From a virus: 27,115 nt of DNA. A program made the position numbers and the translations under genes. Below the pieces are notes generated by a model. That model was not told where the DNA came from. It saw only the letters and a list, made by a program, of their open reading frames with translations, and searched no databases. Positions 9 to 17,860 of this stretch are shown one piece after another (position 1 is the first letter of the stretch; every line of letters begins with the position of its first letter). The stretch is from the IMG/VR virus record IMGVR_UViG_3300021197_001740, positions 1 through 27,115 of that record; one strand, written 5' to 3'.

Positions 9-413
9 ATGAATAAAAATGAATTAAAGAAAATTTTGAAACCCTTAATCAAGGAGTGTATCAAAGAAGTTATTTTTGAGGAAGACGGTGCTCTTTCTCA
101 TATAATTAAAGAAGTTGCTGTCGGAATGTCAGGAAAACAACAAATAACAGAAGTTAAACAAGTTGCGTCGGCACCACCAAAAAGAAAAAATCAACAGCTA
201 AAACAAAGAAAAAAACAACTGCTTGACGCAATCGGAAAAGATGCCTATGGTGGGATTAACGTCTTTGAAGGCACTACACCTGCTCCCGCTCAAAACTCTG
301 GGGGGCAAGGGGCGCTGTCCGGTGTTGATGGTAGTGATCCGGGCGTAGATATATCAAACCTGTTCGGAAATAAATCAGCAACAATATATCAAAAAATGAT
401 GGAGAAGAAATAA
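9..413 (+). CDS. Small head-module-type phage protein of unknown function
   Basis: A 134-residue protein whose function I cannot assign. The N-terminal 40 residues form an amphipathic helix-like stretch (KKILKPLIKECIKEVIFEE, then a 'SHIIKEVAVGM' segment) of a kind I associate with small proteins of T4-like and other aquatic phages, but I cannot name a family. Residues about 50-75 are very rich in Lys and Gln (basic linker), followed by a low-complexity Gly/Ala/Ser/Pro segment and a short C-terminal helix ending in KKMEKK-like charge. The stop codon overlaps the start of the bS21 gene (TAATG), so the two are translationally coupled. In T4 this side of gene 22 carries small prohead genes (67, 68) and protease 21; a prohead-core role is possible by position only. 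No promoter or ribosome binding site is visible because the gene starts at the window edge. Confidence 0.7.
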   Translation: MNKNELKKILKPLIKECIKEVIFEEDGALSHIIKEVAVGMSGKQQITEVKQVASAPPKRKNQQLKQRKKQLLDAIGKDAYGGINVFEGTTPAPAQNSGGQGALSGVDGSDPGVDISNLFGNKSATIYQKMMEKK

Positions 414-619
414 TGGCAACCAATTTAGTTGTTCGCCCAAGACGAGGGGAAAATATTGAAAGAGCTATAAAACGCTTCAATAAAAAAGTTAAGAAATTAG
501 GCATCATTAGTGATTATAAAGAACACCAAAGCTATATGAAGCCTTCTGAGAAAAGACGAAGAGCAAAAAAACGCTCCGACAGAAGAAGAGCTAAGGAGCT
601 TGCAAAAGCTAATAAATGA
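413..619 (+). CDS. rpsU: Phage-encoded 30S ribosomal protein bS21
   Basis: A 68-residue, very basic protein that matches bacterial ribosomal protein bS21 along its whole length (E. coli bS21 is 71 residues). Diagnostic features are the N-terminal beta strand 'VVRPRRGENIERAIKRF', the helix 'NKKVKKLGII', the conserved 'YMKPSEKRRRAKKRSDRR' segment and a Lys/Arg-rich C-terminal helix. bS21 sits on the 30S platform near the anti-Shine-Dalgarno end of 16S rRNA and aids initiation; it is loosely bound and exchangeable, so a phage copy could replace the host's. Phage bS21 genes have been reported from cultured pelagiphage and from metagenomes. The start overlaps the upstream stop (TAATG) with a GGAG about 8 nt before it. 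Placing it among virion genes implies expression with them or just before them. Modification of host translation is inference. Confidence 0.93.
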   Translation: MATNLVVRPRRGENIERAIKRFNKKVKKLGIISDYKEHQSYMKPSEKRRRAKKRSDRRRAKELAKANK

Positions 620-628
620 CTATTTATA
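620..628 (+). promoter_or_regulatory. Putative late promoter motif CTATTTATA
   Basis: Copy 1 of the recurrent CTATTTA element. It begins at the base after the bS21 stop codon and lies 29 nt before the GTG start at 649. It resembles the T4 late -10 box TATAAATA with TT in place of AA at the centre. No -35 element is evident, as in T4 late promoters. Confidence 0.6.
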
Positions 629-648
629 AAGAGATTGGAGAATAAAGA

Positions 649-1083
649 GTGTCAAATTTCAAATATACAGCAGGACTGAATAATGTTGGTTCATATGAAG
701 TAAGCGGTATTCCCTTTGCCTCCGCCAGCATTGACTGCCGAGGCGCAGGTGGATTAAGAATCGTTTTTCCTTTTGTTACTAGATGGGTTTTGGTTAAGAA
801 CAATTCATTTGTTGACGCAGAGGATCTAAGAGTTGGGTTCTCCTCAAATGGCGTTAACGCCATAACTGGAAATAATTTTTTTACTCTACACGACACAACC
901 AACAATAGTCAAGATCGATCTTCTATTATGGAACCGATGGAACTAAAAATAACAGAAATATGGCTTTCTGGGTCTAGAAATGTTGAAGTTATAGCAGGAT
1001 TAACTAATATTCCAAATGAAAGGGTCGATAATATATCACCAGATGGACTAAATTGGTCTGGATCACACGGAGGAATAGGATAA
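649..1083 (+). CDS. Beta-rich phage protein, paralogue A (probable virion protein)
   Basis: A 144-residue protein starting with GTG, preceded by GGAG at about 10 nt spacing. It is a close paralogue of the next gene: both begin 'SxFKYTAGLNNVGSY' and share 'VTRWxxVxNNS', 'LxVGFSS', 'NNFFT', 'DRSSI', 'ELKxxExWLxGSxNxEVIAGLTNIPxER' and an end 'NWSGSxGxG'. The pattern of alternating hydrophobic residues, Gly and Ser predicts an all-beta fold. No signal peptide or membrane segment is visible. Its place at the head of a fibre operon suggests a virion surface or fibre-associated protein, but no function can be named. It ends with TAA immediately followed by the ATG of its paralogue, so the pair is surely co-translated. 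Confidence 0.8.
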   Translation: MSNFKYTAGLNNVGSYEVSGIPFASASIDCRGAGGLRIVFPFVTRWVLVKNNSFVDAEDLRVGFSSNGVNAITGNNFFTLHDTTNNSQDRSSIMEPMELKITEIWLSGSRNVEVIAGLTNIPNERVDNISPDGLNWSGSHGGIG

Positions 1084-1515
1084 ATGTCAGATTTTAAATA
1101 TACGGCGGGGCTGAACAACGTTGGCTCATACCAAGTAAGTGGGGCGCCCTTTGTGTCATCTTCTATCGATTGTGCTGCTTTGGGTGGCCCAATAAAAATT
1201 ACATTCCCGTATGTCACAAGGTGGATTATTGTTCAAAACAATTCAGTAGAAGAACCAGAGGATTTAAAAGTTGGATTCTCAAGCTTGGGGATAACAACGC
1301 ATAATAATTTTTTTACTGTTTTTAATAGACAAGCAGCAGTCAACGCCGACAGGTCTTCAATTGTTCCTAGATTAGAAATAAAATTATCTGAATTATGGCT
1401 AACGGGCTCATCAAATTGTGAGGTTATAGCGGGACTAACAAATATACCAATTGAAAGAATTAACAATATTGGGACTAAAGGCAATAATTGGTCTGGCTCA
1501 AGTGGAGTTGGATAA
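1084..1515 (+). CDS. Beta-rich phage protein, paralogue B (probable virion protein)
   Basis: A 143-residue paralogue of the protein at 649, arising from tandem duplication. The start codon directly abuts the previous stop. Sequence is best conserved at the N-terminus (FKYTAGLNNVGSY), in the middle (FPYVTRWIIVQNNS) and in the C-terminal third (WLTGSSNCEVIAGLTNIP); the stretches between these, including residues about 28-38 and 75-95, differ most. These variable stretches could be surface loops. GGAGGAATAGG just before the start can serve as ribosome binding site. The stop TAA shares its last base with the next start (TAATG at 1513-1517). Function is unknown; a virion decoration or fibre-tip partner is a guess from context. 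Confidence 0.8.
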   Translation: MSDFKYTAGLNNVGSYQVSGAPFVSSSIDCAALGGPIKITFPYVTRWIIVQNNSVEEPEDLKVGFSSLGITTHNNFFTVFNRQAAVNADRSSIVPRLEIKLSELWLTGSSNCEVIAGLTNIPIERINNIGTKGNNWSGSSGVG

Positions 1516-2126
1516 TGGCAGATTTTGGATGGGCATATCTATCTGGTACAGCAGTAGGGCGAGGCCCAGGTGATAGCGTACAGTACATAGAGTCAGCTAA
1601 TGGCGAATTGACTGGTAGTGCAAATTTCACATTTAAGCCTACCAGTAATCAAATGTTCTTAACTGGGACCATGATTATTAGCGGAACCATTCAAGCTCAC
1701 ACTTTTGATGTAATTCAAACAAACATAATTGAAATAGATTCTTCTGGTAATACAAACTTTGGAAGCAGCAATAGCGATTCGCATGCTTTTACCGGTAGTC
1801 TGGCAATTGTTTCCGGTTCATTTAGGCAACATTACAAAAAATTAGAAAGTGGTGGAACATACAATGTTACGGCACATGATAGTATAATCGGGGTCAGCGC
1901 CAGCACATATACTTCCATTCAGTTACCAACTGCCGTGGGCTCATATGGAAGAATTATTGTTATAAAGGATGAAAGAGCGGAAACAAGAACAACGACAAAT
2001 CCAATTGGTATTTCATGTTCTGTAGGTGGACAAACCATCGATCATGGGGCGCATTATCAGGTAACTGGTGATAGTGCTGCTTTAAGTGTCTATTCCGATG
2101 GTGTTTCTAAGTGGTTCATTTACTAA
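1515..2126 (+). CDS. Short fibre-like protein with TIDG-type C-terminal domain
   Basis: A 203-residue protein. I choose ATG 1515 over a longer frame open from 1488, because it overlaps the previous stop as TAATG and has GGAG just upstream; the extra nine residues would read through the paralogue's C-terminus. The N-terminus (about 1-40) contains 'SVQYIESANGELTGSANF', typical of phage fibre repeats that display reference test values. Residues about 120-203 form a C-terminal beta domain: 'DSIIGVSAS', 'IQLPTAVGSYGRIIVIKDE', 'GGQTIDHG', 'LSVYSDGVSKWFIY'. The same domain ends the next two genes, so the three form a fibre family. A role as a short tail or head fibre is inference. Confidence 0.78.
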   Translation: MADFGWAYLSGTAVGRGPGDSVQYIESANGELTGSANFTFKPTSNQMFLTGTMIISGTIQAHTFDVIQTNIIEIDSSGNTNFGSSNSDSHAFTGSLAIVSGSFRQHYKKLESGGTYNVTAHDSIIGVSASTYTSIQLPTAVGSYGRIIVIKDERAETRTTTNPIGISCSVGGQTIDHGAHYQVTGDSAALSVYSDGVSKWFIY

Positions 2127-2142
2127 CAGGAGGGATTAATGG

Positions 2143-2778
2143 ATGGGATACAATGTTCTAAGTGGAAGCACCTCAGTTATAAATGTAATATCCAGCGGAT
2201 CTTTTATCGGAGACGGATCTGGTCTTGATAATGTAGAGCAATTCCCCCTTCAAAATGCGTCAGTCACACTGATACCTTTTTATAAGACCATTAGCGGAGA
2301 ATTGGGCCTTAATGCTAACTCTGGTTTTTCTTTTAGTGTCAACAAAAATGCTCTAACAGTTCCCGGGATGACTAGCTCTGTTGGGATAAATTTATCTACT
2401 TTGATTTCCGGGTCTATTGCTGGTCCGGGGAGTTACCTTGGCGTTGATGTTCACGGCAACTTTGTCATAACATCTTCCACCGGAATTGGCTATAGTAGAA
2501 GATTTATAACTTCGTCCGCTACTGCTTCTGTCGATAATACTCTGATTGGCATTTCCGCCTCTTCCGCTTTAAGTTTGAGATTATCCCCCGCTGGTGAATA
2601 TAAAAAAGGACAATATTTTGTAATTAAGGACGAAGGCGGAAATGCCAATTTATATAATATTACCATAAAAACAAGTGGTTCTCAAACTATTGATGGAGAA
2701 AGTGCTATTGTTTTAGAAAGTCCCTATAGTTCGGTTAACTTGTATTCTAATGGTACCGATAAATTCTTTATTTATTAA
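2143..2778 (+). CDS. Short fibre-like protein with TIDG-type C-terminal domain
   Basis: A 211-residue protein with a strong GGAGGG at 2129-2134, 8 nt before ATG 2143. An ATG at 2139 lies in another frame and is not used. The N-terminal part is Ser/Gly/Ile-rich ('GSFIGDGSGLDNV'), a common phage fibre motif for strand-turn repeats. Residues about 130-211 repeat the C-terminal domain of the preceding gene: 'NTLIGISASSALSLRLSP', 'GQYFVIKDEGGNA', 'SGSQTIDGESAIVLESP', 'VNLYSNGTDKFFIY'. This arrangement suggests a trimeric beta-structured fibre with a conserved cap. It lies 16 nt behind the previous gene and is the last gene of the transcription unit begun at 620. The exact attachment site on the virion is unknown. 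Confidence 0.78.
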   Translation: MGYNVLSGSTSVINVISSGSFIGDGSGLDNVEQFPLQNASVTLIPFYKTISGELGLNANSGFSFSVNKNALTVPGMTSSVGINLSTLISGSIAGPGSYLGVDVHGNFVITSSTGIGYSRRFITSSATASVDNTLIGISASSALSLRLSPAGEYKKGQYFVIKDEGGNANLYNITIKTSGSQTIDGESAIVLESPYSSVNLYSNGTDKFFIY

Positions 2779-2800
2779 TGTAATTTCGAACTTTTAAACT

Positions 2801-2808
2801 CTATTTAT
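2801..2808 (+). promoter_or_regulatory. Putative late promoter motif CTATTTAT
   Basis: Copy 2 of the CTATTTA element, 56 nt before the ATG at 2857. A GC-rich hairpin (2812-2832) follows directly, so a transcript starting about 10 nt after the motif would begin at or in that hairpin. Confidence 0.6.
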
Positions 2809-2811
2809 GAG

Positions 2812-2840
2812 TGAGGGGGCATTGCTCCCTTAAGCTTTTT
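2812..2840 (+). other. GC-rich hairpin in 5' leader of the large fibre gene, possibly a weak terminator
   Basis: TGAGGGGGC (2812-2820) pairs with GCTCCCTTA (2824-2832) around an ATT loop, with G-U wobbles; five T follow at 2836-2840 after the spacer AGC. The position just after a promoter motif favours a leader hairpin that protects the mRNA or insulates it. A terminator for the upstream unit is the alternative. Confidence 0.45.
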
Positions 2841-2856
2841 ATTGGAGGATATATAT

Positions 2857-5121
2857 ATGGCTTATAAATTTCAATTGGGTGCGTACACCGCATCCGGTTC
2901 ATTAACTCAAGAAGGCGCCATTGAATGCGACACCAGTTTAACAATTGGTTCTGCTGAAATGACCGAAGCCGATCTTGAAAAATTGGATGGTATTACTAAT
3001 GGTACTGCTGCTGCTAACAAAGCATTGGTTTTAGATGCGAATGGAAAAGTTGGAACAATTACACAACTTACTGCTTCCTACATTAGTGCTTCTCACATAC
3101 AAGCAACTCATGGTACTTTTTCTGCTAACTCTCTTATTGTAGGTTCTACCACAATAAGCGAAACAGAAATTGCTTTGCTTGATGGTTTAACAGTTGGTAC
3201 TGTTGCGGCTTCTAAAGCAGTAACCGTTGATGCTAACAAAGATGTTGGTTCTTTTAGAAACATTGATGGTGCTGGTGACCTTACTATGGCTACTATTACT
3301 ATGACTGGTTTTTCTGTAGACGCAGATGGTGACACTGCTCTTAAATCTTTAAAGATTGATGATGATTCAACAATCGGTACTGATTCCGACGCAGACATGA
3401 TTCTTTTAGATCCGGGCGCTGACATTACTATTGCCAGTGATTTAGATTTTATTATTGGTAAAGCTGGTGGACTTCAGCTTGCTGATGGTGCAGTTGGTTC
3501 TACCGCTGCTGAGTTGAATCTTTTGGACGGCTTTGCTGATGCTTCTTACGTTTTCAATGCTGATAGTGTTGTGTTCTTTGATGCTACTGATAATAAACTT
3601 AAAAGAGATGCTGGTGGTGACTTCGTTGCTGCTATTGCTGGTGATGGCTTGGCAAATTCCAGTGGAAGATTAGAAGTACAAGTTACTGGTGCTGTTGTTA
3701 TTCAATCAGACTTCCTTGCTTTGTCTTCTTCTGTTGCTGGTACTGGTATTGAAGTTGGTGCTGCTGACGGACAAAAAGTTGATACTTTATCTATCGACTT
3801 AACCAACGTTTCTGCTCTTGGTGGAACCGGATTACATCAAACTCAGGACCATTTTATGTTTTCTGATAACGGTGCAATCAAAAAGATTACATTTTCTAAT
3901 TTAGAAGATGCTATTTTTGGTAACATTAGTGGTGATGCTACTATCGCTGGTGGTGGTGCTTTAACTATTGCTGCTGGTGCAGTCGAACATGGCATGCTTG
4001 CTGATGACATTATTTCTGGTCAATCTGCTCTCGGTGGCGCTTCTGTTGCTCAAGCTGATTTATTAATGCTTGATGATGGTCCCGGTGAAGTTAAAAAGGT
4101 TACATTCTCAAACTTTGAAGATTCAATCTTCGGTAATGTTTCTAGTGATGCTACTATCGCTGCTGGTGGTGCTTTAACTATTGCTGACAACGCTGTTACT
4201 TTGGCTAAAATGGCTGGATTGGCTGCTGGTAAATTCATCCTTGGTGATTCAAATGGTGACCCTGCTGCTGTAACATTAAGTGGCGATGCGACTGTAAGTA
4301 ACGCTGGTGTTGTTTCTTTGGCTGCTGCTCAAACCAATGTTACTTCTCTTTTAGCCGCTGATATCAAGATTGGTGAGGATGATCAAACCAAAATCGATTT
4401 CGGAACTGCTAATGAGATCAAGTTTTATGCAAACAATAATCAAGAAATGGTTATTGATGACAATGGTGTTGTTATTGCCGGTAACTTGACTGTTCAAGGT
4501 ACTACCACTTCCGTTAGTTCTACTACCATTAACATTTCTAGCTCTTTCACTTTTGAAGGGCCGGCTGATGCTCACGAAACTACTTTGGATTGCGGAATCC
4601 CTGTAGCTGATTCAAACATCATATTACCACAATTAAATGCTGGTACTTATTACCTTCCTGCGCTTGCTGCTGATCCGGGAACAACTGCTGTTGTTGCTAC
4701 TGTGGCTGAGTTGAACTTGTTGGATGGTGGTAATTCTCGCTCTGCGGTTGCTCTTGTTGATGGTGATGGATTCATTCTTAATGATGGCGGAACTATGAAG
4801 ACTGCCACTTTAGCAAGTATCAAAACTTATGTTGGTGGTACTACTAATGTTGCGTTAAAAGATGATACTGAAACATTGGCTGTTGGTTTTAATTATTTTG
4901 CTGATCTTGGTGGTGCCGAGACTTGTAACTTGCCTGCTTCTCCGGAAGTTGGACAAATTGTACAACTTAAAGCTCCAAACAATTGTTCTGTTTCAAATAA
5001 AATCACAGTTAGTAAACAGGGATCTCATACAATTGATGGTGCCACCTCAGTTATTTTAGAATCGCCTAATGCTGCTGTGTCGTTTGTATATGTCGCTAAC
5101 AACACATGGAAGATCTACTAA
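2857..5121 (+). CDS. Large repetitive tail-fibre-like protein
   Basis: A 754-residue fibre protein. Start ATG 2857 has GGAGG at 2844-2848, 8 nt upstream; a TTG at 2842 lies inside that ribosome binding site and is rejected. The protein is made of imperfect repeats with the phage fibre signatures 'LDGITNGTAAANKALVLDA', 'LLDGLTVGTVAASKAVTVD' and two copies of 'AELNLLDG'. Two repeat units around residues 333-376 and 403-447 share 'KKxTFSNxEDxIFGN' and 'DATIAxGGALTIA'. A module 'ADSVVFFDA...AIAGDGLANSSGR...LALSSSVAG' recurs in the fibre at 6188. The C-terminus (about 670-754) is the TIDG domain shared with the two preceding genes. Codons are strongly biased to GCT, GGT and GTT, like the capsid gene, suggesting high expression. 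Probable long fibre or its main shaft; receptor unknown. Two terminators follow. Confidence 0.85.
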   Translation: MAYKFQLGAYTASGSLTQEGAIECDTSLTIGSAEMTEADLEKLDGITNGTAAANKALVLDANGKVGTITQLTASYISASHIQATHGTFSANSLIVGSTTISETEIALLDGLTVGTVAASKAVTVDANKDVGSFRNIDGAGDLTMATITMTGFSVDADGDTALKSLKIDDDSTIGTDSDADMILLDPGADITIASDLDFIIGKAGGLQLADGAVGSTAAELNLLDGFADASYVFNADSVVFFDATDNKLKRDAGGDFVAAIAGDGLANSSGRLEVQVTGAVVIQSDFLALSSSVAGTGIEVGAADGQKVDTLSIDLTNVSALGGTGLHQTQDHFMFSDNGAIKKITFSNLEDAIFGNISGDATIAGGGALTIAAGAVEHGMLADDIISGQSALGGASVAQADLLMLDDGPGEVKKVTFSNFEDSIFGNVSSDATIAAGGALTIADNAVTLAKMAGLAAGKFILGDSNGDPAAVTLSGDATVSNAGVVSLAAAQTNVTSLLAADIKIGEDDQTKIDFGTANEIKFYANNNQEMVIDDNGVVIAGNLTVQGTTTSVSSTTINISSSFTFEGPADAHETTLDCGIPVADSNIILPQLNAGTYYLPALAADPGTTAVVATVAELNLLDGGNSRSAVALVDGDGFILNDGGTMKTATLASIKTYVGGTTNVALKDDTETLAVGFNYFADLGGAETCNLPASPEVGQIVQLKAPNNCSVSNKITVSKQGSHTIDGATSVILESPNAAVSFVYVANNTWKIY
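3853..4197 (+). repeat. Direct protein-level repeat within the large fibre gene
   Basis: Two tandemly arranged units, 3853-3984 and 4063-4197, encode matching segments (KKITFSNLEDAIFGN against KKVTFSNFEDSIFGN, then SGDATIAGGGALTIA against SSDATIAAGGALTIA). DNA identity is also high in the second half. This is a shaft-repeat duplication and a possible site of recombination-driven fibre length change. Confidence 0.7.
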
Positions 5122-5139
5122 TCCCGGATTAGTTTTTTC
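5118..5139 (+). terminator. Intrinsic terminator overlapping the fibre stop codon
   Basis: CTAATC (5118-5123) pairs with GATTAG (5127-5132) around CCG, followed by six T (5133-5138). The stem includes the TAA stop of the 754-aa fibre. Confidence 0.7.
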
Positions 5140-5155
5140 TTCAGTCGATTATTGT

Positions 5156-5187
5156 GGTTGGTGTCCTATGGGCACCAGCCCTTTTTT
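5156..5187 (+). terminator. Strong second intrinsic terminator
   Basis: An 11-bp stem, GGTTGGTGTCC (5156-5166) with GGGCACCAGCC (5170-5180), loop TAT, two G-U pairs, followed by C and six T (5182-5187). It is in tandem with the terminator at 5118, so transcription of the fibre is stopped twice before the next promoter motif at 5198. Confidence 0.85.
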
Positions 5188-5197
5188 ATTTTAAAAG

Positions 5198-5206
5198 CTA
5201 TTTATC
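5198..5206 (+). promoter_or_regulatory. Putative late promoter motif CTATTTATC
   Basis: Copy 3 of the CTATTTA element, 22 nt before ATG 5220 and directly after the tandem terminators, so it must start a new unit if those terminators work. Confidence 0.62.
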
Positions 5207-5219
5207 TTGGAGATCAAAA

Positions 5220-6146
5220 ATGGCTTATAATTTTACAAAAGGGAATCAGGCATTAGGAGATATATCTGGGTCCGATGATAGCAATAGAAACACGGGTATT
5301 GATTTTGAAGAGGACTATATTGGTCTTGAAACAAGTGGATCACTTCGATTTAAAATATCCGGATCAACTGGCGCAATCACATTTAACGAGGCTTTTACAT
5401 TTCCAACCTCTGATGGTAGTGCAAATCAAGTTTTAAAAACAAACGGATCGGGGCAATTAAGTTGGACTAACCAATCTAGTGGTGGTGGCGATGGTGGTGT
5501 TAGAATCCCTTACCCAAGATTGTATTTCTCAGGTATCTCGGCGGTTTCACAAATAGGAAACAATTCGTTTACAAATGCAACAATTAGCACAGATAACGGA
5601 AAATATGAGAACGGGTTTATTGATTTCGGTTCATCAGGAAATACAGCGCCCGCTAGGTTTGAATCAGAGATCCCATTGCTTGGCGGTGTTTATACATTTT
5701 CTTTTTGGTTTTATTCCAAGCGAACAGGATCAGACTGGGGGTCTATCTTAAGGCGAGAGTCCGGCGGGTCCCCTGTAAATACACAGGATTATCCCATTGT
5801 GACTGAAAACTCTACCGACGAACTCGGGGTCTATACTGAATCCGGTGGCCAATTTTACTCTTCTGGTTATGATATGACCTCACTTGAGGGGACGACCTCA
5901 TGGACACATATGGCTGTTGTTGCAAACGGAACAAATTCTAAATTTTATATTAACGGCTCGCTTGTGGGTACTGCCGATGCTGTTGTAACTACCTCAGCCA
6001 AAGAACTTGGCGCTTATGACGGCAACGACACACAGGTTTTCGGTGAAGGTATTGATGATTTTGCACATTGGGCCGATGTATTATCAGCCGAACAGATATC
6101 AGAAATTTATAATTCATCATCGAAGTTGAGTGAAATAGTAACATAA
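5220..6146 (+). CDS. Tail fibre with LamG/concanavalin A-like domain
   Basis: A 308-residue protein. ATG 5220 is chosen because the longer frame from 5154 would read through the terminator at 5156-5187 and the promoter motif. Residues 1-70 resemble fibre N-termini ('GSLRFKISGSTGAITFNE'), then 'GSANQVLKTNGSGQLSWT', a common phage fibre linker, and a Gly-rich hinge. Residues about 95-308 look like a Laminin_G_3/concanavalin A-like jelly-roll: 'YTFSFWFYSKR', 'TSWTHMAVVANGTNSKFYINGSLVG' (split here across the tract), and the closing 'IDDFAHWADVLSAEQISEIYN'. In phages such domains bind surface carbohydrate, so this is a candidate receptor-binding or capsid-adhesion protein. It has its own promoter motif and is followed by another at 6160. 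Confidence 0.82.
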   Translation: MAYNFTKGNQALGDISGSDDSNRNTGIDFEEDYIGLETSGSLRFKISGSTGAITFNEAFTFPTSDGSANQVLKTNGSGQLSWTNQSSGGGDGGVRIPYPRLYFSGISAVSQIGNNSFTNATISTDNGKYENGFIDFGSSGNTAPARFESEIPLLGGVYTFSFWFYSKRTGSDWGSILRRESGGSPVNTQDYPIVTENSTDELGVYTESGGQFYSSGYDMTSLEGTTSWTHMAVVANGTNSKFYINGSLVGTADAVVTTSAKELGAYDGNDTQVFGEGIDDFAHWADVLSAEQISEIYNSSSKLSEIVT

Positions 6147-6159
6147 TCACTAGTTTGTT

Positions 6160-6167
6160 CTACTTAT
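6160..6167 (+). promoter_or_regulatory. Variant late promoter motif CTACTTAT
   Basis: One mismatch (C for T at position 4) from the CTATTTA element; lies 28 nt before ATG 6188, the same distance as most exact copies. Confidence 0.42.
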
Positions 6168-6187
6168 TATAAAACAGAGGATTTTAA

Positions 6188-8077
6188 ATGTCATACAATA
6201 TTCTTAACAAAAATGTTAATTTTCAAGGCACAACACAAGGAACAGTAGAGGATTTAGCAGATACGCACTCAGATCAAACAATTTCCGGTCTTAAGACAAT
6301 AACACATCTAACTGGTACAAATGTTAAAGTTACCAACGATATTAATGTTTTTGGTAACGTTTCTGCGTCAGTCAACATATCTGCTTCGTTTTTCTACGGA
6401 GACGGGAGCACACTCAGCAATATAGATAGTATTTCATTTGATGGGAGTACTGCAAATGGTATACTGACATTTAAAGATGCTGATGAGGCAAGCGTTGAAT
6501 CTAGTCTTACTTTTGACGGATCTGTTTTAGATTTTAAAACAACATCTATCTCGGGATCAGGAAATATATCCGGTTCAACATTCTGGGGTTCTGGTGCTGG
6601 GCTGACTGGAATTTTAGGCAGCGCAGTTACATTAGCCTCCGGAGGAGGAATCACAGACTCTAGCGGACTTAAGCTGGATGTTGGCGTTGATGCTATAGGC
6701 TCTCTAAACATCGCAGATAAAATTTTAATTTTTGATGCTGATGGCGGGGATGCTGTAAAAAGAACAACCGCAGGTGACATTGCTGGTCTTTTTGATCCCG
6801 TAGTTTCTACATTTAATGGACAAACGCTACATAGAGTTGTAACTGTGGGCGGCACTGAGACAATTGATGGGGAAGCAAATTTAACATTTAATGGCTCTGT
6901 TTTGACAATTACCGGTGATGTGTCTGGGTCTCAAGTTATATCTGGCTCCATCGGCCACTTTGTAACAAGAGTGGAGGCCACCGCAATTTCATTAGGCGAT
7001 GCTACTGGATTGGCCGGACTAGGTCTGACAAATGGATCTGGTGAATTAGACGTTCAAGTTTCCGGTGCGCTTCATATATCATCCGACAAGGTTGCTATCA
7101 GCGGCTCATTCGCTGGGAGCGGATTATCATTTGCTGGTGCTGAAGAGGGCATTTCTTCAATTGCGATTAATTTAGCTTCGTCATCTGGGTTACAACTAAG
7201 CAGTGGAGAACTTTCAGTTAACTTAAATTCATTAGGGACTGCAACACCGCTTTTCAGCGCTGATAGTATTGTTTTTATCGATGCAGATGACGGCTCTACT
7301 AAAAAATCCGCATTTAGTAATTTTGTGGCCACCATGGCAGGAGATGGTCTTGTTAACAATTCTGGTCGTTTCGATATTAATGTAAGTGGCGCCATGGCTC
7401 TCCAATCAGATAAGTTAGTTTTGTCATCGTCTGTTGCCGGTAACGGCCTTGAAGTGGCTGCTGGGGATGGACAGATGGTAAATACACTATCTGTTAAAGT
7501 TTCTGACTTTATGGGCAATGGCGTTAATAATAGAATTGTAACTGCTGCTGATGCGAACTCCATGAATGCCGAGGAGAATTTGTCGTTTGGGGGAACAACA
7601 TTAGAATTGACCGGAACACTAGCAACCAGAGATACAGGAAACACCGCAATAATCATGGAAAGTACTGTGGGTGCCAGCGGATCTTTGTTATTAATGAGAT
7701 ATAAAGAGATCGCCCACACATGCACTACCAGTGCAGCCTCTGAAGATATCGCAGACTTCTTTACAACAAATATGATTCCTTTTGCTTTAGGCATTAGGGT
7801 GACAACAGCGATTACTCGTGGCGATGCTTCTTCTCCCCATATAACTAAAATCGGTACAGTTAATGATGACGATTCATTCGGAACATTTGGCGACAATGAT
7901 TTAGAACAAGCGGGAGATAATTTGGTAACTTCTTACCACCCAGCAAACGCCACTGGACAGAATACAAAATGGTTTACTTCCAATCATGAATTGAAAATAA
8001 CATACGCCGCACAACCTGCTGCGGGAGCTTTGAGGCTTGGTTTATATTACTACGAAATAACTCCGCCCACTTCATAG
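6188..8077 (+). CDS. Tail-fibre-like protein with exchangeable shaft modules
   Basis: A 629-residue fibre protein with AGAGG about 8 nt before ATG. The N-terminus 'MSYNILNKNVNFQGTTQGTV' and the segment 'QTISGLKTITHLTG', 'FFYGDGSTLSNI' are typical of fibre shafts. Modules recur: 'GDGLVNNSGRF...VSGAMALQSDKLVLSSSVAGNGLEV' (about residues 380-430) matches a module of the 754-aa fibre and also an earlier internal copy (about 280-330, 'GSGELDVQVSGALHISSDK'). The last 130 residues form a different C-terminal domain ('LLLMRYKEIAHTC', 'IPFALGIRVTTAITRGDASS', 'HELKITYAAQPAAGALRLGLYYYE') without the TIDG motif, so this fibre has a distinct tip. It likely forms part of the adsorption apparatus; the partner and receptor are unknown. 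Confidence 0.82.
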   Translation: MSYNILNKNVNFQGTTQGTVEDLADTHSDQTISGLKTITHLTGTNVKVTNDINVFGNVSASVNISASFFYGDGSTLSNIDSISFDGSTANGILTFKDADEASVESSLTFDGSVLDFKTTSISGSGNISGSTFWGSGAGLTGILGSAVTLASGGGITDSSGLKLDVGVDAIGSLNIADKILIFDADGGDAVKRTTAGDIAGLFDPVVSTFNGQTLHRVVTVGGTETIDGEANLTFNGSVLTITGDVSGSQVISGSIGHFVTRVEATAISLGDATGLAGLGLTNGSGELDVQVSGALHISSDKVAISGSFAGSGLSFAGAEEGISSIAINLASSSGLQLSSGELSVNLNSLGTATPLFSADSIVFIDADDGSTKKSAFSNFVATMAGDGLVNNSGRFDINVSGAMALQSDKLVLSSSVAGNGLEVAAGDGQMVNTLSVKVSDFMGNGVNNRIVTAADANSMNAEENLSFGGTTLELTGTLATRDTGNTAIIMESTVGASGSLLLMRYKEIAHTCTTSAASEDIADFFTTNMIPFALGIRVTTAITRGDASSPHITKIGTVNDDDSFGTFGDNDLEQAGDNLVTSYHPANATGQNTKWFTSNHELKITYAAQPAAGALRLGLYYYEITPPTS

Positions 8078-8138: not shown

Positions 8139-9170
8139 ATGTCTTCAATGTTAGAACAGGCAATCGTAGATGCGGCGGCATTACGAGAAGCAGCACTAAA
8201 AAATGCTGAACAATCAATTATTGAGAAGTACGCCCCTCAAATTAAAGAAGCGGTTAATTCATTATTAGATAAAGATATTATAAATGAAGATGTCGCAATG
8301 ACTGCTGGTACAGAACAAACACCATCTGGTATCGAAGCGCCTCTGGCTGCTTCTCCTGTGACTGATCCAAACCAAGATGTCACTCTCACCTTAACAGATG
8401 ATGACCAAGTCTATGAATTTGATTTAGAAGCGCTCAAGCAACCAGAAACGCAAGCAGCCTCGGAAGAAACAGCACCAGAAAGCACAGAAAACTTAATGGG
8501 AGACCTTGGGTTAGAAGCACCAGATACTGGTGGTGAAGATGCGGGCCTCGGTGGTGATGCGCTTCTTAATGAAATTATGGACATCTTGTCTGAAGTTAAC
8601 GACGAAGACGAAGAAGAGGTTCTCGAAGAAGAACTTGTTGTTGATATGGCCGGACAACACAAAAACGGCACCTTCGAGTCAAACGAAGGGACTTTAAAGT
8701 ATCAACAGGAAATGCAATTAGCAAAAGAAGAAGCTACCAAGCATAAAGAAGAGAATGAAGAGCTTGAAAAGAAAGCAAAAGAACTCGCAGAGTCTGTCTC
8801 TTCCCTTACTTCGAAGAACAAAGAATTACTAGAAATTATAAACAAATTGGACAACAGTCTCGAAGAGACGTTGTTATCAAATGCTAAGTTGCTTTATAGC
8901 AACCACACATTAAGCGATGCCTCCTTGAATGAGCGACAAAAATCAAAAATTGTTGAAGCCATCGCAAAGGCAAAAACACCAGAAGAGGCAAAAAATCTTC
9001 ATGAAGCGCTCAAGACTACAGTGGGAACATCAAAAACAGATGGTCCAAAATCACTTAGTGAGTCAGTAAATAAAAGATCAAATCTCTCAGGTATTATGCC
9101 ACGTAGAAAACAACCAGCACAAGAATTCTCATTTGCTGATAAAATGAAGAAACTTGCTGGTATTAAATGA
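8139..9170 (+). CDS. 22: Prohead core scaffolding protein (T4 gp22-like)
   Basis: A 343-residue acidic, helical protein directly before the major capsid gene, as gene 22 is in T4 (269 residues there). It would form the inner core on which the gp23 shell assembles and then be degraded by the prohead protease. The N-terminus (1-45) is an amphipathic helix; residues 60-175 are low-complexity and acidic, with 'DEDEEEVLEEE' near 158-168; residues 188-248 form a Lys/Glu coiled coil; residues 248-292 contain 'NAKLLYSNHTLSDASLNERQ' and 'EAIAKAKTPEEAKNL', features I know from gp22-family C-terminal regions. AGGAG at 8125-8129 gives 9-nt spacing to ATG. The 21-nt gap to gene 23 lacks promoter or terminator, so the two are co-transcribed. 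Confidence 0.85.
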   Translation: MSSMLEQAIVDAAALREAALKNAEQSIIEKYAPQIKEAVNSLLDKDIINEDVAMTAGTEQTPSGIEAPLAASPVTDPNQDVTLTLTDDDQVYEFDLEALKQPETQAASEETAPESTENLMGDLGLEAPDTGGEDAGLGGDALLNEIMDILSEVNDEDEEEVLEEELVVDMAGQHKNGTFESNEGTLKYQQEMQLAKEEATKHKEENEELEKKAKELAESVSSLTSKNKELLEIINKLDNSLEETLLSNAKLLYSNHTLSDASLNERQKSKIVEAIAKAKTPEEAKNLHEALKTTVGTSKTDGPKSLSESVNKRSNLSGIMPRRKQPAQEFSFADKMKKLAGIK

Positions 9171-9191: not shown

Positions 9192-11102
9192 ATGTCTATT
9201 GTTCAGAAATTATCTGAAGGCATAGTAAACCGTGATATGAAAGCAGAAGGGCAAGCTCTTTTGAATAAGTGGTCACAAACAGGTTTACTTGAAGGTCTTC
9301 AAAACGAACAATCTAAGCAAAATATGGCTAGATTGCTCGAAAACCAAGCTAAAGAGCTTCTTCGTGAAGCTTCTACTATGGGCGCTGGTGATGTCGAAGG
9401 TTTCGCATCTGTAGCATTCCCAATCGTTCGTCGTGTATTCGCCGGACTTATCGCTAACGAACTTGTTAGTGTACAACCAATGAGTCTACCAAGTGGTCTT
9501 ATTTTCTTCCTTGACTTCGTTTATAGCTCTGATAGCGGCGGAGTTGATAATATGAGCCCACGTATGGGTAATGTTGAAGATAAATCGATTTATGGTACAA
9601 ACGATGTTGCCAAAGGCATCATTGATGGTGTTGATCTTGTCGATGCTACTAACAAAGCAGGATTCGGTGGACCCGGACGTGATGGTTCTTTTGCTGGTGC
9701 GTATGCTAGCCCAACCGGATCTAACGTTGCCACAATCAACAACGCTACCACACACGCTGCAATCACCACTTTTGTGCTTGATGGCGCTGTAACCGAAGCA
9801 AATCAAAAGCTTATCCAATACGATCCAGATCTACTAACAATTACAGATAGTAGCTATGGTGTAATCGTTCTGGATGTTAAAGCTGATGGCGCAAACGGAC
9901 TTGAGTCTATCTCTACTAAATCAGATGGTGATTTGAAGAATGTTCATGCTTATCAAATTGATTCAATTCTGCCGTCCATTCAACCTACCCTTGATGCTGA
10001 GGCTAAAGCGTTCTATGATGCTATAATCAACCATGGTGGTATTACTACATCTGCCGCTGGTATGGAAGCTGCGGATTTCACACAGATTCGCCGTTTAAGT
10101 CGACATCTGACAAATGCTGGTAGCCAGTTAACTGGTGGAACAAACGCTGCTGTTCGTTTCGTAATGGTTGCGACTCAGGGTATTGGCGCTTCTGCTTCTG
10201 CGGCGGTTGGTGCGACTCTTCCCGCAAATACATTCAGTTTCCCAATCAAGGACAATCTTGATGTAGGTGGTGCTCTTGGCTCAGTTAATGCTGCTACCAA
10301 CAACTATGCGCTTGAGGGTGAAGACCAAATCCCAGAGATTGACATCAAAGTTGATTCAACTGCGATCACAGCGCAGACCAAGAAGCTTAAAGCTAAATGG
10401 ACTCCTGAGCTTGGTCAAGACTTGAACGCTTATCATAACCTTGACGCTGAAGTCGAATTGACTTCTATCCTTTCAGAGCAGATTGCTTTGGAAATTGATC
10501 GTGAGATCCTTGCTGACCTTGTTAATGGTGCCACTGCTGGTACTCTTTATTGGTCTCGTTCTCCCGGTTTGTTTGTAAATCGTCAAACTGGTGCTGAACT
10601 GGGTGCGACTGCTGCATCTCCTGACTTTACAGGAACTGTATCAGAATGGTATGAAACTCTTATTGAAACTATCAATGACGTTTCTGCTCAAATCCACAGA
10701 AAGACTCTTCGTGGTGGTGCTAACTTCGTAGTTTGTTCTCCAGAAGTTGCTAACATCCTTGAGTTCACCTCTGGATTCCGTGCTAACGTAACTGCTGACG
10801 CTGATAAAGGCGACATCGGTGCTGTTAAGACCGGTTCTTTGAGTCGTAAATTCGACGTTATGGTCGATCCTTACTTCCCAAGAAACGTAATTCTTGTAGG
10901 ACGTAAAGGGAATTCTTTCCTTGAGTCTGGATACGTATATGCACCTTACGTTCCGCTACAAGTAACACCTACCATCTTCGGACCAGAAGATTTCGTGCCT
11001 CGTAAAGGGGTCATGACTCGCTATGCGAAGAAAATGGTACGCTCCGATATGTACGGTCTTGTTATCGTTCGTGGATTGCTTGGAGAGAGCGGCGCAAGCT
11101 AA
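9192..11102 (+). CDS. 23: Major capsid protein (T4 gp23-like)
   Basis: A 636-residue HK97-fold major head protein (T4 gp23 is 521). Match blocks to gp23: 'LIANELVSVQPMSLPSGLIF' at about 86-105; 'KLKAKWTPELGQDLNAYHNL' then 'DAEVELTSILSEQIALEIDR' at 397-437; 'GYVYAPYVPL' and 'EDFVPRKGVMTRYAKKM' at 580-615. The extra length sits mainly between residues about 120 and 390, a region that could hold an enlarged insertion domain. The N-terminal ~60 residues are helical and charged, like the gp23 propeptide; LRE at 57-59 fits the (L/I)-x-E consensus of prohead protease gp21, though LLE at 48-50 is also possible. AGGAGG lies 7 nt before ATG. Arg codons are mostly CGT, unlike neighbouring genes that prefer AGA, consistent with very high expression. 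Confidence 0.96.
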   Translation: MSIVQKLSEGIVNRDMKAEGQALLNKWSQTGLLEGLQNEQSKQNMARLLENQAKELLREASTMGAGDVEGFASVAFPIVRRVFAGLIANELVSVQPMSLPSGLIFFLDFVYSSDSGGVDNMSPRMGNVEDKSIYGTNDVAKGIIDGVDLVDATNKAGFGGPGRDGSFAGAYASPTGSNVATINNATTHAAITTFVLDGAVTEANQKLIQYDPDLLTITDSSYGVIVLDVKADGANGLESISTKSDGDLKNVHAYQIDSILPSIQPTLDAEAKAFYDAIINHGGITTSAAGMEAADFTQIRRLSRHLTNAGSQLTGGTNAAVRFVMVATQGIGASASAAVGATLPANTFSFPIKDNLDVGGALGSVNAATNNYALEGEDQIPEIDIKVDSTAITAQTKKLKAKWTPELGQDLNAYHNLDAEVELTSILSEQIALEIDREILADLVNGATAGTLYWSRSPGLFVNRQTGAELGATAASPDFTGTVSEWYETLIETINDVSAQIHRKTLRGGANFVVCSPEVANILEFTSGFRANVTADADKGDIGAVKTGSLSRKFDVMVDPYFPRNVILVGRKGNSFLESGYVYAPYVPLQVTPTIFGPEDFVPRKGVMTRYAKKMVRSDMYGLVIVRGLLGESGAS

Positions 11103-14959: not shown

Positions 14960-17860
14960 ATGCCTAGAAGATTTGATTTTATATCACCCGGCGTATCCAT
15001 CAGGGAGATTGATGAAAGTACAGTAGCACCAGATGTTAGTAATGATGGTATTTTATTAATTGGTCAAGCACCACAAGGTCCCGGTAACGTACCAGTTAAA
15101 GTTAAAAATTTGGAAGATTTTTATAGAATTTTTGGACAGCCAATTTCAGGCAAAGGTTCCAAAAACACTGACGTTTGGAGAGACGGAAATAGACAACTTA
15201 CAACATATGCCATGTATGCAGCACAAGCGTGGCTAGCCAGCGGAACATCTCCGGTTACATTTATTAGATTATTAGGTGAGGACACACCAACAGCTAAACA
15301 AGCATCCGGGTATACAAAGGCTGGGTGGTATTCTGGGCACAACAACTCTGTTCATTCTGAACACGAATCTAATGCTTTTGGTCTTTGGATTATGGCTTCA
15401 AGTTCGCATGCTGGTGAAGTCGATGGTATTACACAAGACGCTGTTTTGGCGGCTGTGATTTATACAACTGGGTCTCAATTTGGCCTTAAGGGGACACTGC
15501 CGTCCGAAGATCCTACGCTTTTAGATCCCGTTAAAGCCGTCGGTGGGCTTTTAAATACTTGGGTTGAGTCAAGTACTGTTGGAGGTGTTGCAAACACTTT
15601 TGAATTAGTACATAGTTCTTCTTATAACGTTCAAAAGAGTTTTCAGGTTCACTTTTCAAAAGACAATGCGGATGGATATATCAGAAATGTTTTAAATTGT
15701 AATCCGCAAAAAGTAAATGGAACAAATCAAGAGACAACTGAAACCTATTGGTTAGGCGAAACTTTCGAAGAGCATACTAGCCGACTAATTAATGAGACAT
15801 TGGGTGCGGCGTCATCCTCAGCAGGTCAACAATTTGGTATCTTAATACCATTAGGGTCTGGATATGTCGAAAGAAGAAAAGAAGCGACAGCGTCTAAAAC
15901 AGGGTGGTTTATAAATAGGAACCCTGCTCCAAAGACAGGATATGCCACTTGGAAGATATCCTCAGAATCTAAATTATTTAGATTAGTATCTTTACACGAG
16001 GGCGAATGGTTTAGCCAGAATTACGGCGCCAAGATCGATAATATCAAATTAGGAACAACATCAAATCCGGATTCAACTTTTTCAGTTGTTATTGTAGACG
16101 CAGATGGAAGTGAAATTGAAAGATGGGATAATTGTAATCTAAATCAGTCCTCCGTTAATTTTGTAGCAAATAAAATTGGTGACCAATTCCAAACTTATAA
16201 TGATACGCTAGAGAAGCACGAACTTTTTGGAGAATATAAAAATAATTCTGATTATATTCGTGTTGAAATGGCTCCCGACTGGAAGGCAGGAATTTCAGAT
16301 GCTAGAATGGTACCATGGGGATTTTGGGGACCGCTCAAGCCCAAATCTCTCTTGGTAAACACCGGCTCAATCACTTTTGGAACTAATACTTTTGGTGAAT
16401 TAGCTAAAAAAGCTACTTTCGGGCCTCAAGGGCACCACAATCCGAATGTAGCCCTTATGATCAGCGCATCAATATTACACACTGCTTCATTAAATTGGCC
16501 AGATATGAAATTAACAGATGAAAATTCAAATAATTCAGGAAATTATACAAGAGATTATGTTTTTGGAGTAAGGCAGACACTCGATACAGATAATAAGGGC
16601 AAAAAGCAATTATGGTATTCACCAGATTACAAAGATTTAGTGAGAGCGCTGCCAAATAATTTGTCTTCGGATATCTTGGCTAATACCACTCAAGCTAGTT
16701 GGATTTTCTCATTAGATGAGATAAGAAAAGAAGAAGATCAAGAGTTATGGTATTATAAATCTGGCTCACACATACAATCAACCGAAGCTAACAGATCTTA
16801 TACTGCTAAAAGCGGGTCTGCTGCTCTTCTGACCGCCGGAATTAAACAATTTCAGGCACCATTTGTCGGTGGGTGTGATGGCCTAGACGTTACGCAAGTC
16901 GATCCATTCTCAATTGTAAATGGCCTATCAAACACCGCAGCTTCAGCACACTACGCTTTTTATACAGCAGAAAGAGCATTAGGTATCATCGAAGACCCAG
17001 ACCTATTAAGATACGATTTAGTTTCTTTCCCGGGTAATGTCAATGAAACACTAAATAGAAAACTTATTAGAGGTGTAGAAGAGAGAGGAGATGCACTGGC
17101 TATTATTGATATTGATTCTAGCTATCGTAAGGCCTATGAAGGCAGCGGAACAGAAACTCTTGGAACTTCAACCCAAATTATTACAAACGCCAAGGCACGA
17201 GATTACAATACTAGCTACGCCGCAGCGTATTATCCTCCTGTTAGATTGAGAGATAATAATGGTGATATTACTGTTGTTCCACCATCTGTTGCAGCAATCG
17301 GAGCAATCGGGTTCTCAGAGGCTAATAGCCAAGGCCCTTGGTTTGCACCAGCAGGGTTTAATCGAGGCGGAATTAGCATTCTTGGTGGGTCTGCCGGACC
17401 TAGAGTGGCGGGCACAATAGAGCATTTAACAAAGCAAAACCGAGATGATTTATATGAAGTAAATCTTAATCCAATCGCAAGATTCCCTGCTGTTGGAGAA
17501 ATTGTCATCTTCGGACAGAAAACATTACAACAAACAAATTCTGCGCTTGATAGAATTAATGTACGAAGACTATTAATATATCTTAAAAAGGAAATCAACG
17601 CAATTGCTAATACAATCTTATTCGATCAAAATGTTCGAACAACATGGCTAAGATTTAAAACCGCAGCCGATAGAGTATTGAGCGATGTGCAGAGTCGTTT
17701 GGGCGTAACTGAATACAAACTGGTTTTAGACGAGACCACCACAACCGCAGATTTAGTCGATAGAAATATACTATATGCGAAGGTCTTTGTCAAGCCGGCT
17801 AGAGCGATTGAATTTATCGCAATTGATTTTATAATTACAAAAACTGGAATTGAATTTTAA
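14960..17860 (+). CDS. 18: Contractile tail sheath protein (T4 gp18-like)
   Basis: A 966-residue sheath protein; T4 gp18 is 659, so about 300 residues are added. AAGGAG at 14946-14951 gives 8-nt spacing. The N-terminus 'RFDFISPGVSIREIDES' and 'GILLIGQAPQGPGNVPVKV' with 'DFYRIFGQP' is the standard sheath N-terminal strand and domain I start. The C-terminal 300 residues are also standard: 'LGGSAGPRVAGTIEHLTKQN' with 'DLYEVNLNPIARFPAVGEIV', 'FGQKTLQ', 'RINVRRLLIYLKKEI', 'FDQNVRTTWLRFK' and a closing strand 'FIAIDFIITKTGIEF'. The extra sequence lies between about 100 and 600 and probably forms outward-facing domains. It is transcribed alone between promoter motifs at 14921 and 17869, fitting a protein made in many copies. 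Confidence 0.95.
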   Translation: MPRRFDFISPGVSIREIDESTVAPDVSNDGILLIGQAPQGPGNVPVKVKNLEDFYRIFGQPISGKGSKNTDVWRDGNRQLTTYAMYAAQAWLASGTSPVTFIRLLGEDTPTAKQASGYTKAGWYSGHNNSVHSEHESNAFGLWIMASSSHAGEVDGITQDAVLAAVIYTTGSQFGLKGTLPSEDPTLLDPVKAVGGLLNTWVESSTVGGVANTFELVHSSSYNVQKSFQVHFSKDNADGYIRNVLNCNPQKVNGTNQETTETYWLGETFEEHTSRLINETLGAASSSAGQQFGILIPLGSGYVERRKEATASKTGWFINRNPAPKTGYATWKISSESKLFRLVSLHEGEWFSQNYGAKIDNIKLGTTSNPDSTFSVVIVDADGSEIERWDNCNLNQSSVNFVANKIGDQFQTYNDTLEKHELFGEYKNNSDYIRVEMAPDWKAGISDARMVPWGFWGPLKPKSLLVNTGSITFGTNTFGELAKKATFGPQGHHNPNVALMISASILHTASLNWPDMKLTDENSNNSGNYTRDYVFGVRQTLDTDNKGKKQLWYSPDYKDLVRALPNNLSSDILANTTQASWIFSLDEIRKEEDQELWYYKSGSHIQSTEANRSYTAKSGSAALLTAGIKQFQAPFVGGCDGLDVTQVDPFSIVNGLSNTAASAHYAFYTAERALGIIEDPDLLRYDLVSFPGNVNETLNRKLIRGVEERGDALAIIDIDSSYRKAYEGSGTETLGTSTQIITNAKARDYNTSYAAAYYPPVRLRDNNGDITVVPPSVAAIGAIGFSEANSQGPWFAPAGFNRGGISILGGSAGPRVAGTIEHLTKQNRDDLYEVNLNPIARFPAVGEIVIFGQKTLQQTNSALDRINVRRLLIYLKKEINAIANTILFDQNVRTTWLRFKTAADRVLSDVQSRLGVTEYKLVLDETTTTADLVDRNILYAKVFVKPARAIEFIAIDFIITKTGIEF

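Follow-up and report, generated by a model that had tools for sequence, protein, structure and literature searches.

The ribosomal protein bS21 is exchangeable and is loosely bound beside the 3′ tail of 16S rRNA. Phage-encoded copies are widespread (PMC6375957) and occur in huge phages (PMC7162821), and bS21 has been described as the commonest ribosomal protein encoded by phages (PMC9976891). In the lytic lake myoviruses of Bacteroidetes described by Chen et al. in 2022, as in the phages analyzed here, bS21 lies in a conserved context near the terminase, portal, prohead protease, and capsid genes; in the lake phages, bS21 and the capsid genes are expressed together late (PMC9723584). Pelagibacter phage HTVC008M and the pelagimyophages are likewise marine T4-like phages, and bS21 is a core gene of their group (PMC6375957, PMC7029224). 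The HTVC008M protein enters E. coli ribosomes, but the protein output of ribosomes containing it reached only about 5% of the normal level (PMC6375957). In Bacteroidia, ribosomes hide the anti-Shine-Dalgarno (anti-SD) sequence with the help of bS21 residue Tyr54, and in Flavobacterium johnsoniae strong SD sites are translated more when Tyr54 or the C terminus of bS21 is lost (PMC9976891). A preliminary description of the present DNA, which stated that phage copies had been reported and that their role was largely untested, was fair, although previous work on other phages has documented phage bS21, its capsid-gene neighborhood, and its late expression (PMC9723584, PMC6375957, PMC7029224). What we add is a marine clade in which bS21 has a fixed, same-strand slot in the protease unit and is coinherited with head genes. 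We also compare this clade with its sister lineages and report a test for an SD advantage of late genes that proved negative.

Comparison with these and other known systems reveals differences. The lake-phage bS21 gene is on the reverse strand and position 54 of its product is still aromatic (PMC9723584), whereas the gene described here is on the strand of the structural genes, overlaps or adjoins the gene that follows the protease, encodes no aromatic residue at that position, and is found among SD-led genes. The pelagimyophage gene was reported outside any gene cluster, with a product most similar to that of the host (54% identity), in contrast to the fixed head-module slot seen here (PMC7029224, PMC6375957). 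Microcystis phage Mel-JY01 carries RpsU (PP395634) in the same slot, with the order protease, small gene, bS21, and then scaffold and capsid, but it has a freshwater cyanobacterial host and its RpsU is only 31% identical to our protein. Flavobacterium phage immuto and its relatives share a related capsid protein (49% identity) and terminase, yet bS21 was found in 0 of 35 testable loci and their genes are SD-poor (4%). Finally, the chromosomal rpsU of Bacteroidia (PMC9976891) encodes a bS21 with a similar N-terminal half (GENIERAIK), but that protein carries Tyr54 and its gene is preceded by an extended SD that serves in autoregulation (about −15.5 kcal/mol in the Bacteroidales genes tested), and the phage gene has neither.

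The window, by which we mean the whole 27,115-base stretch of DNA analyzed, covers part of the genome of a T4-like myovirus from a clade that we take to be marine, to judge by the source samples behind many of the contig identifiers. It encodes a gp23-like major capsid protein (9192 to 11102, plus strand; PHROG 138, E = 3e-74), a gp18-like tail sheath (14960 to 17860, plus strand; PHROG 23, E = 1e-54), a tail tube, and a baseplate hub, and its relatives encode a gp21-type protease. The virion-gene module named in the preliminary description is, by the capsid and sheath matches, a T4-like one. The capsid gene is preceded by a gp22-like scaffold gene (8139 to 9170, plus strand), identified without a family match by its position and its likeness to the precapsid gene of relatives. 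Between bS21 and the scaffold gene are fibre-like genes (649 to 8077, plus strand), assigned by position and repetitive sequence only; two adjacent genes in this region, 649 to 1083 and 1084 to 1515, encode similar proteins of 144 and 143 residues (SNFKYTAGLNNVGSY and SDFKYTAGLNNVGSY) and likely represent a tandem duplication. Among named phages, the capsid protein is best matched by those of LR756508, immuto, Mel-JY01, and Rhodothermus phage RM378, and comparison at the DNA level with named phages gave no near match. The left side of the module is supplied by a 185,652-base relative, G004, in which terminase and portal genes are followed by the prohead protease (PF03420, E = 4e-35), the small gene, and bS21, and then by the fibre-like, scaffold, and capsid genes. 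G004 also encodes a ClpP-like, head-maturation-type protease (128574 to 129176; L078:8574-9173) far from its head module.

The bS21 gene occupies positions 413 to 619 on the plus strand as a complete reading frame, ATG to TGA, that encodes 68 amino acids. Its product matches Pfam family PF01165 (Ribosomal_S21) with 59.9 bits (E = 2e-16), well above the curated cut-off of 27 bits, with residues 7 to 59 aligned to positions 2 to 54 of the 55-position profile, and it matches PHROG 21469 (ribosomal protein S21; E = 3e-10). In addition, a phmmer search of the PDB with the protein recovered 30S bS21 chains. The AlphaFold model, based on 37 phage relatives, has a pLDDT of 88 and predicts helices at residues 15 to 29, 31 to 39, and 44 to 67. 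Foldseek comparison of the model returned bS21-family chains as its sole matches, the top one being Acinetobacter baumannii bS21 (TM score 0.71, probability 1.00), although the E-value, for a protein of this small size, is weak (0.03). The family core residues F22, K25, and K27 and the KPS motif are retained. Hence, the earlier identification of the 68-residue product as full-length bS21 is upheld by the HMM comparison it had proposed and by the predicted fold. Searching named phages with the protein by tblastn gave no matches, probably because the low-complexity filter masks so basic a protein; profile searches do detect bS21 in Mel-JY01 and LR756508.

The start codon of bS21 overlaps the stop codon of a small conserved gene (9 to 413, plus strand; 134 residues, beginning MNKNELKKILKPLIKECIKEVIFEE) in a TAATG, exactly the coupling noted previously, and in relatives this small gene follows the prohead protease. 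It had been called a small structural-type gene. Its conservation is borne out, but the structural label is unproven, as searches against family profiles returned no significant match and no structural family; a RelB-like antitoxin match was weak and below the cut-off. The small gene also occurs in relatives in L002 to L031, and the amphipathic start of its product is reminiscent of the capsid-targeting leaders of T4 internal proteins, a resemblance only.

The gene order in relatives is fixed as prohead protease (gp21), small gene, bS21, fibre-like genes, scaffold (gp22), and major capsid protein (gp23). The window bS21 thereby falls within ten genes of the prohead protease and capsid genes, with the protease located outside the window and read from relatives. 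Among loci fetched through the protease or the capsid protein, never through bS21, bS21 was present in the slot, no more than 4 kb downstream of the protease and on the same strand, in all 79 that could be judged, and every locus with more than 3.5 kb available had it. This is the fair figure, since a wider tally of 109 loci includes ones fetched with bS21 itself; the protease-fetched set comprises the best 80 of 592 matches and so represents the near clade only. The median distance between the protease and bS21 frames is 436 bases. A further 16 loci were too short to judge, and two of these, L297 and L327, extend 2.6 to 2.8 kb past the protease without bS21, being possible losses or longer insertions.

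The bS21 gene is also inherited with the protease gene. Pairwise distances of bS21 and protease are correlated (r = 0.60), with 0 of 1,000 permutations as high. Moreover, bS21 is under strong purifying selection, with dN/dS values of 0.04 to 0.12 where these were computable, most pairs being saturated at synonymous sites. The combination of purifying selection and tracking of the protease tree indicates that bS21 is an old resident gene. In a 64-row bS21 tree, built from a short alignment with narrow cellular sampling (Bacteroidota and E. coli only), the marine phage proteins group in a single clade that excludes Mel-JY01, LR756508, and 12 cellular sequences (support 96/95). In both Mel-JY01 and LR756508, bS21 is again found a short distance ahead of the scaffold and capsid genes. 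The capsid tree pairs immuto with Mel-JY01 (95/88) within a group that includes LR756508. The simplest reading, given an uncertain root and long branches, is that the common ancestor of the marine, Mel-JY01, LR756508, and immuto lineages already carried bS21, which was later lost in the immuto lineage. The recurrence of the same slot in almost every sampled relative points to a lasting role that bS21 may have in virion-protein production.

The sequence surrounding this unit suggests how it may be expressed. A copy of the late-promoter-like motif CTATTTA (CTATTTATAAAG, 620 to 631, plus strand) begins immediately past the stop codon of bS21, in agreement with the earlier placement of bS21 directly before the first late promoter motif, the promoter role being one that we infer. 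CTATTTA differs from the T4 late promoter, TATAAAT. The window contains 10 copies on the coding strand compared with 3 expected, 7 of them intergenic, and the motif is overrepresented in relatives as well. Of 94 distinct loci, 55 have a copy within the 50 nt that follow bS21, compared with 1.6% of random windows, and the motif is also enriched before the protease. Thus, the protease, the small gene, and bS21 resemble a single unit flanked by two late-type promoters. From motif and position, late production of bS21 along with the protease is most likely, and bS21 is likely cotranscribed with late genes. The motif recurs ahead of structural genes in the window, at 620, 2801, 5198, 8099, 11169, 12294, 14921, and 17869.

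The phage genes are strongly SD-led. Using gene starts taken as the first ATG after the previous gene, a rule that makes the fractions approximate but was the same in all comparisons, a four-base SD match precedes 74% of genes in the window (control, 4%), 69% in G004, and 66% in the clade. The corresponding shares are 43% in Mel-JY01 and 56% in its relatives, 14% in RM378, 9% in LR756508, 3% in immuto, 4% in immuto-like loci, and 4 to 19% in four Bacteroidota genomes. The idea that bS21 might bias ribosomes toward late messages with strong GGAGG sites is supported as far as strong SD sites on phage genes are concerned, but not as a late-message bias, as predicted SD pairing energies in G004 are equivalent for structural genes (−6.4 kcal/mol) and others (−6.7 kcal/mol; p = 0.50). 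Hence, the phage is SD-led throughout and a simple late-gene SD advantage fails.

The SD site of bS21 itself (GGAG, 400 to 412, plus strand) is ordinary, with a predicted pairing of −6.6 kcal/mol. Across 86 phage loci the mean before bS21 is −5.7 kcal/mol, and only 1 of the 86 passes the −13 kcal/mol threshold for an extended SD. At the position aligned with Tyr54 the window protein has Arg57, scorable relatives have R, A, K, Q, L, or P, and no scorable bS21 of the clade has an aromatic residue. With neither Tyr54 nor an extended SD, the window bS21 is not of the Bacteroidia type. Tyr54 is likewise missing from the bS21 of E. coli and of early-branching Bacteroidota, its absence being, from these alignments, the common state. 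These early-branching forms are the closest of the Bacteroidota bS21 proteins sampled, but as that sampling covered only Bacteroidota no host is claimed, and the tree with cellular copies that had been proposed for finding one separated the phage clade from all 12 cellular sequences. The phage tRNA-Thr, at most 84% identical to those of sampled Bacteroidota, is uninformative in this regard. One bS21-bearing relative, L031, is on a contig (IMGVR_UViG_2684622992_000002) whose identifier looks like that of an IMG genome rather than a metagenome.

Collectively, these data lead us to favor, with some reserve, a reading in which a phage bS21 lineage has become fixed in a protease/small-gene/bS21 head unit and, made late, fills 30S subunits in support of SD-led phage initiation. 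The phage bS21 would be produced late alongside the protease, and, because bS21 is loosely bound next to the 16S rRNA 3′ tail, the phage copy could occupy new or bS21-depleted 30S subunits, such that initiation on SD-led phage mRNAs would stay efficient during bulk virion-protein synthesis. Entry into ribosomes may be expected by analogy with the published HTVC008M data, and a preference for phage mRNA is likewise something we infer; our literature search found no report demonstrating such a preference by a phage bS21. Two observations weigh against this reading, namely the near inactivity of E. coli ribosomes with a pelagiphage bS21 (PMC6375957) and the equal SD strength of structural and other genes. 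The main competing explanation, which we judge rather unlikely, is that phage bS21 tops up a limiting host protein and works like the host copy, with no preference for phage mRNA. The conserved core residues and KPS motif, the ordinary SD sites, and the purifying selection all fit such a role, but the separation of the marine phage clade from the cellular proteins (96/95), sampled from Bacteroidota and E. coli only, argues against frequent replacement by host copies.

A switch in SD mode would give bS21 a more active part: lacking Tyr54, the phage protein would free the anti-SD, or keep it free, so that ribosomes read SD-led phage mRNAs, most strikingly in a host that hides its anti-SD. This would fit the lack of an aromatic residue in every scorable bS21, the strongly SD-led phage genes, the boost to strong-SD translation when F. 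johnsoniae loses Tyr54 or the C terminus (PMC9976891), and the SD-poor genes and missing bS21 of the relatives on SD-blind Flavobacterium. If true, it would account for the fixation of bS21 in SD-led lineages and its absence from related phages of those hosts. However, the host probably makes ordinary use of SD sites, Tyr54 is missing from E. coli and early-branching Bacteroidota too, LR756508 is an exception with bS21 present yet SD-poor genes, and the contrast with immuto amounts to essentially one loss; we regard the switch as very improbable. The fixed slot between the gp21-like and gp22-like genes could instead suggest that bS21 is a basic protein packaged with the prohead core, and packaging was raised as a possibility for the lake phages (PMC9723584), but the retention of the full bS21 family profile and fold argues against a virion role, which we likewise regard as very improbable. 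Whichever function bS21 has, its fixed slot, the many diverse members of the clade, and the sister lineages without bS21 make this a clean comparative setting. With an identified host, the clade would permit a direct test of whether phages respecify ribosomes for their own mRNAs.
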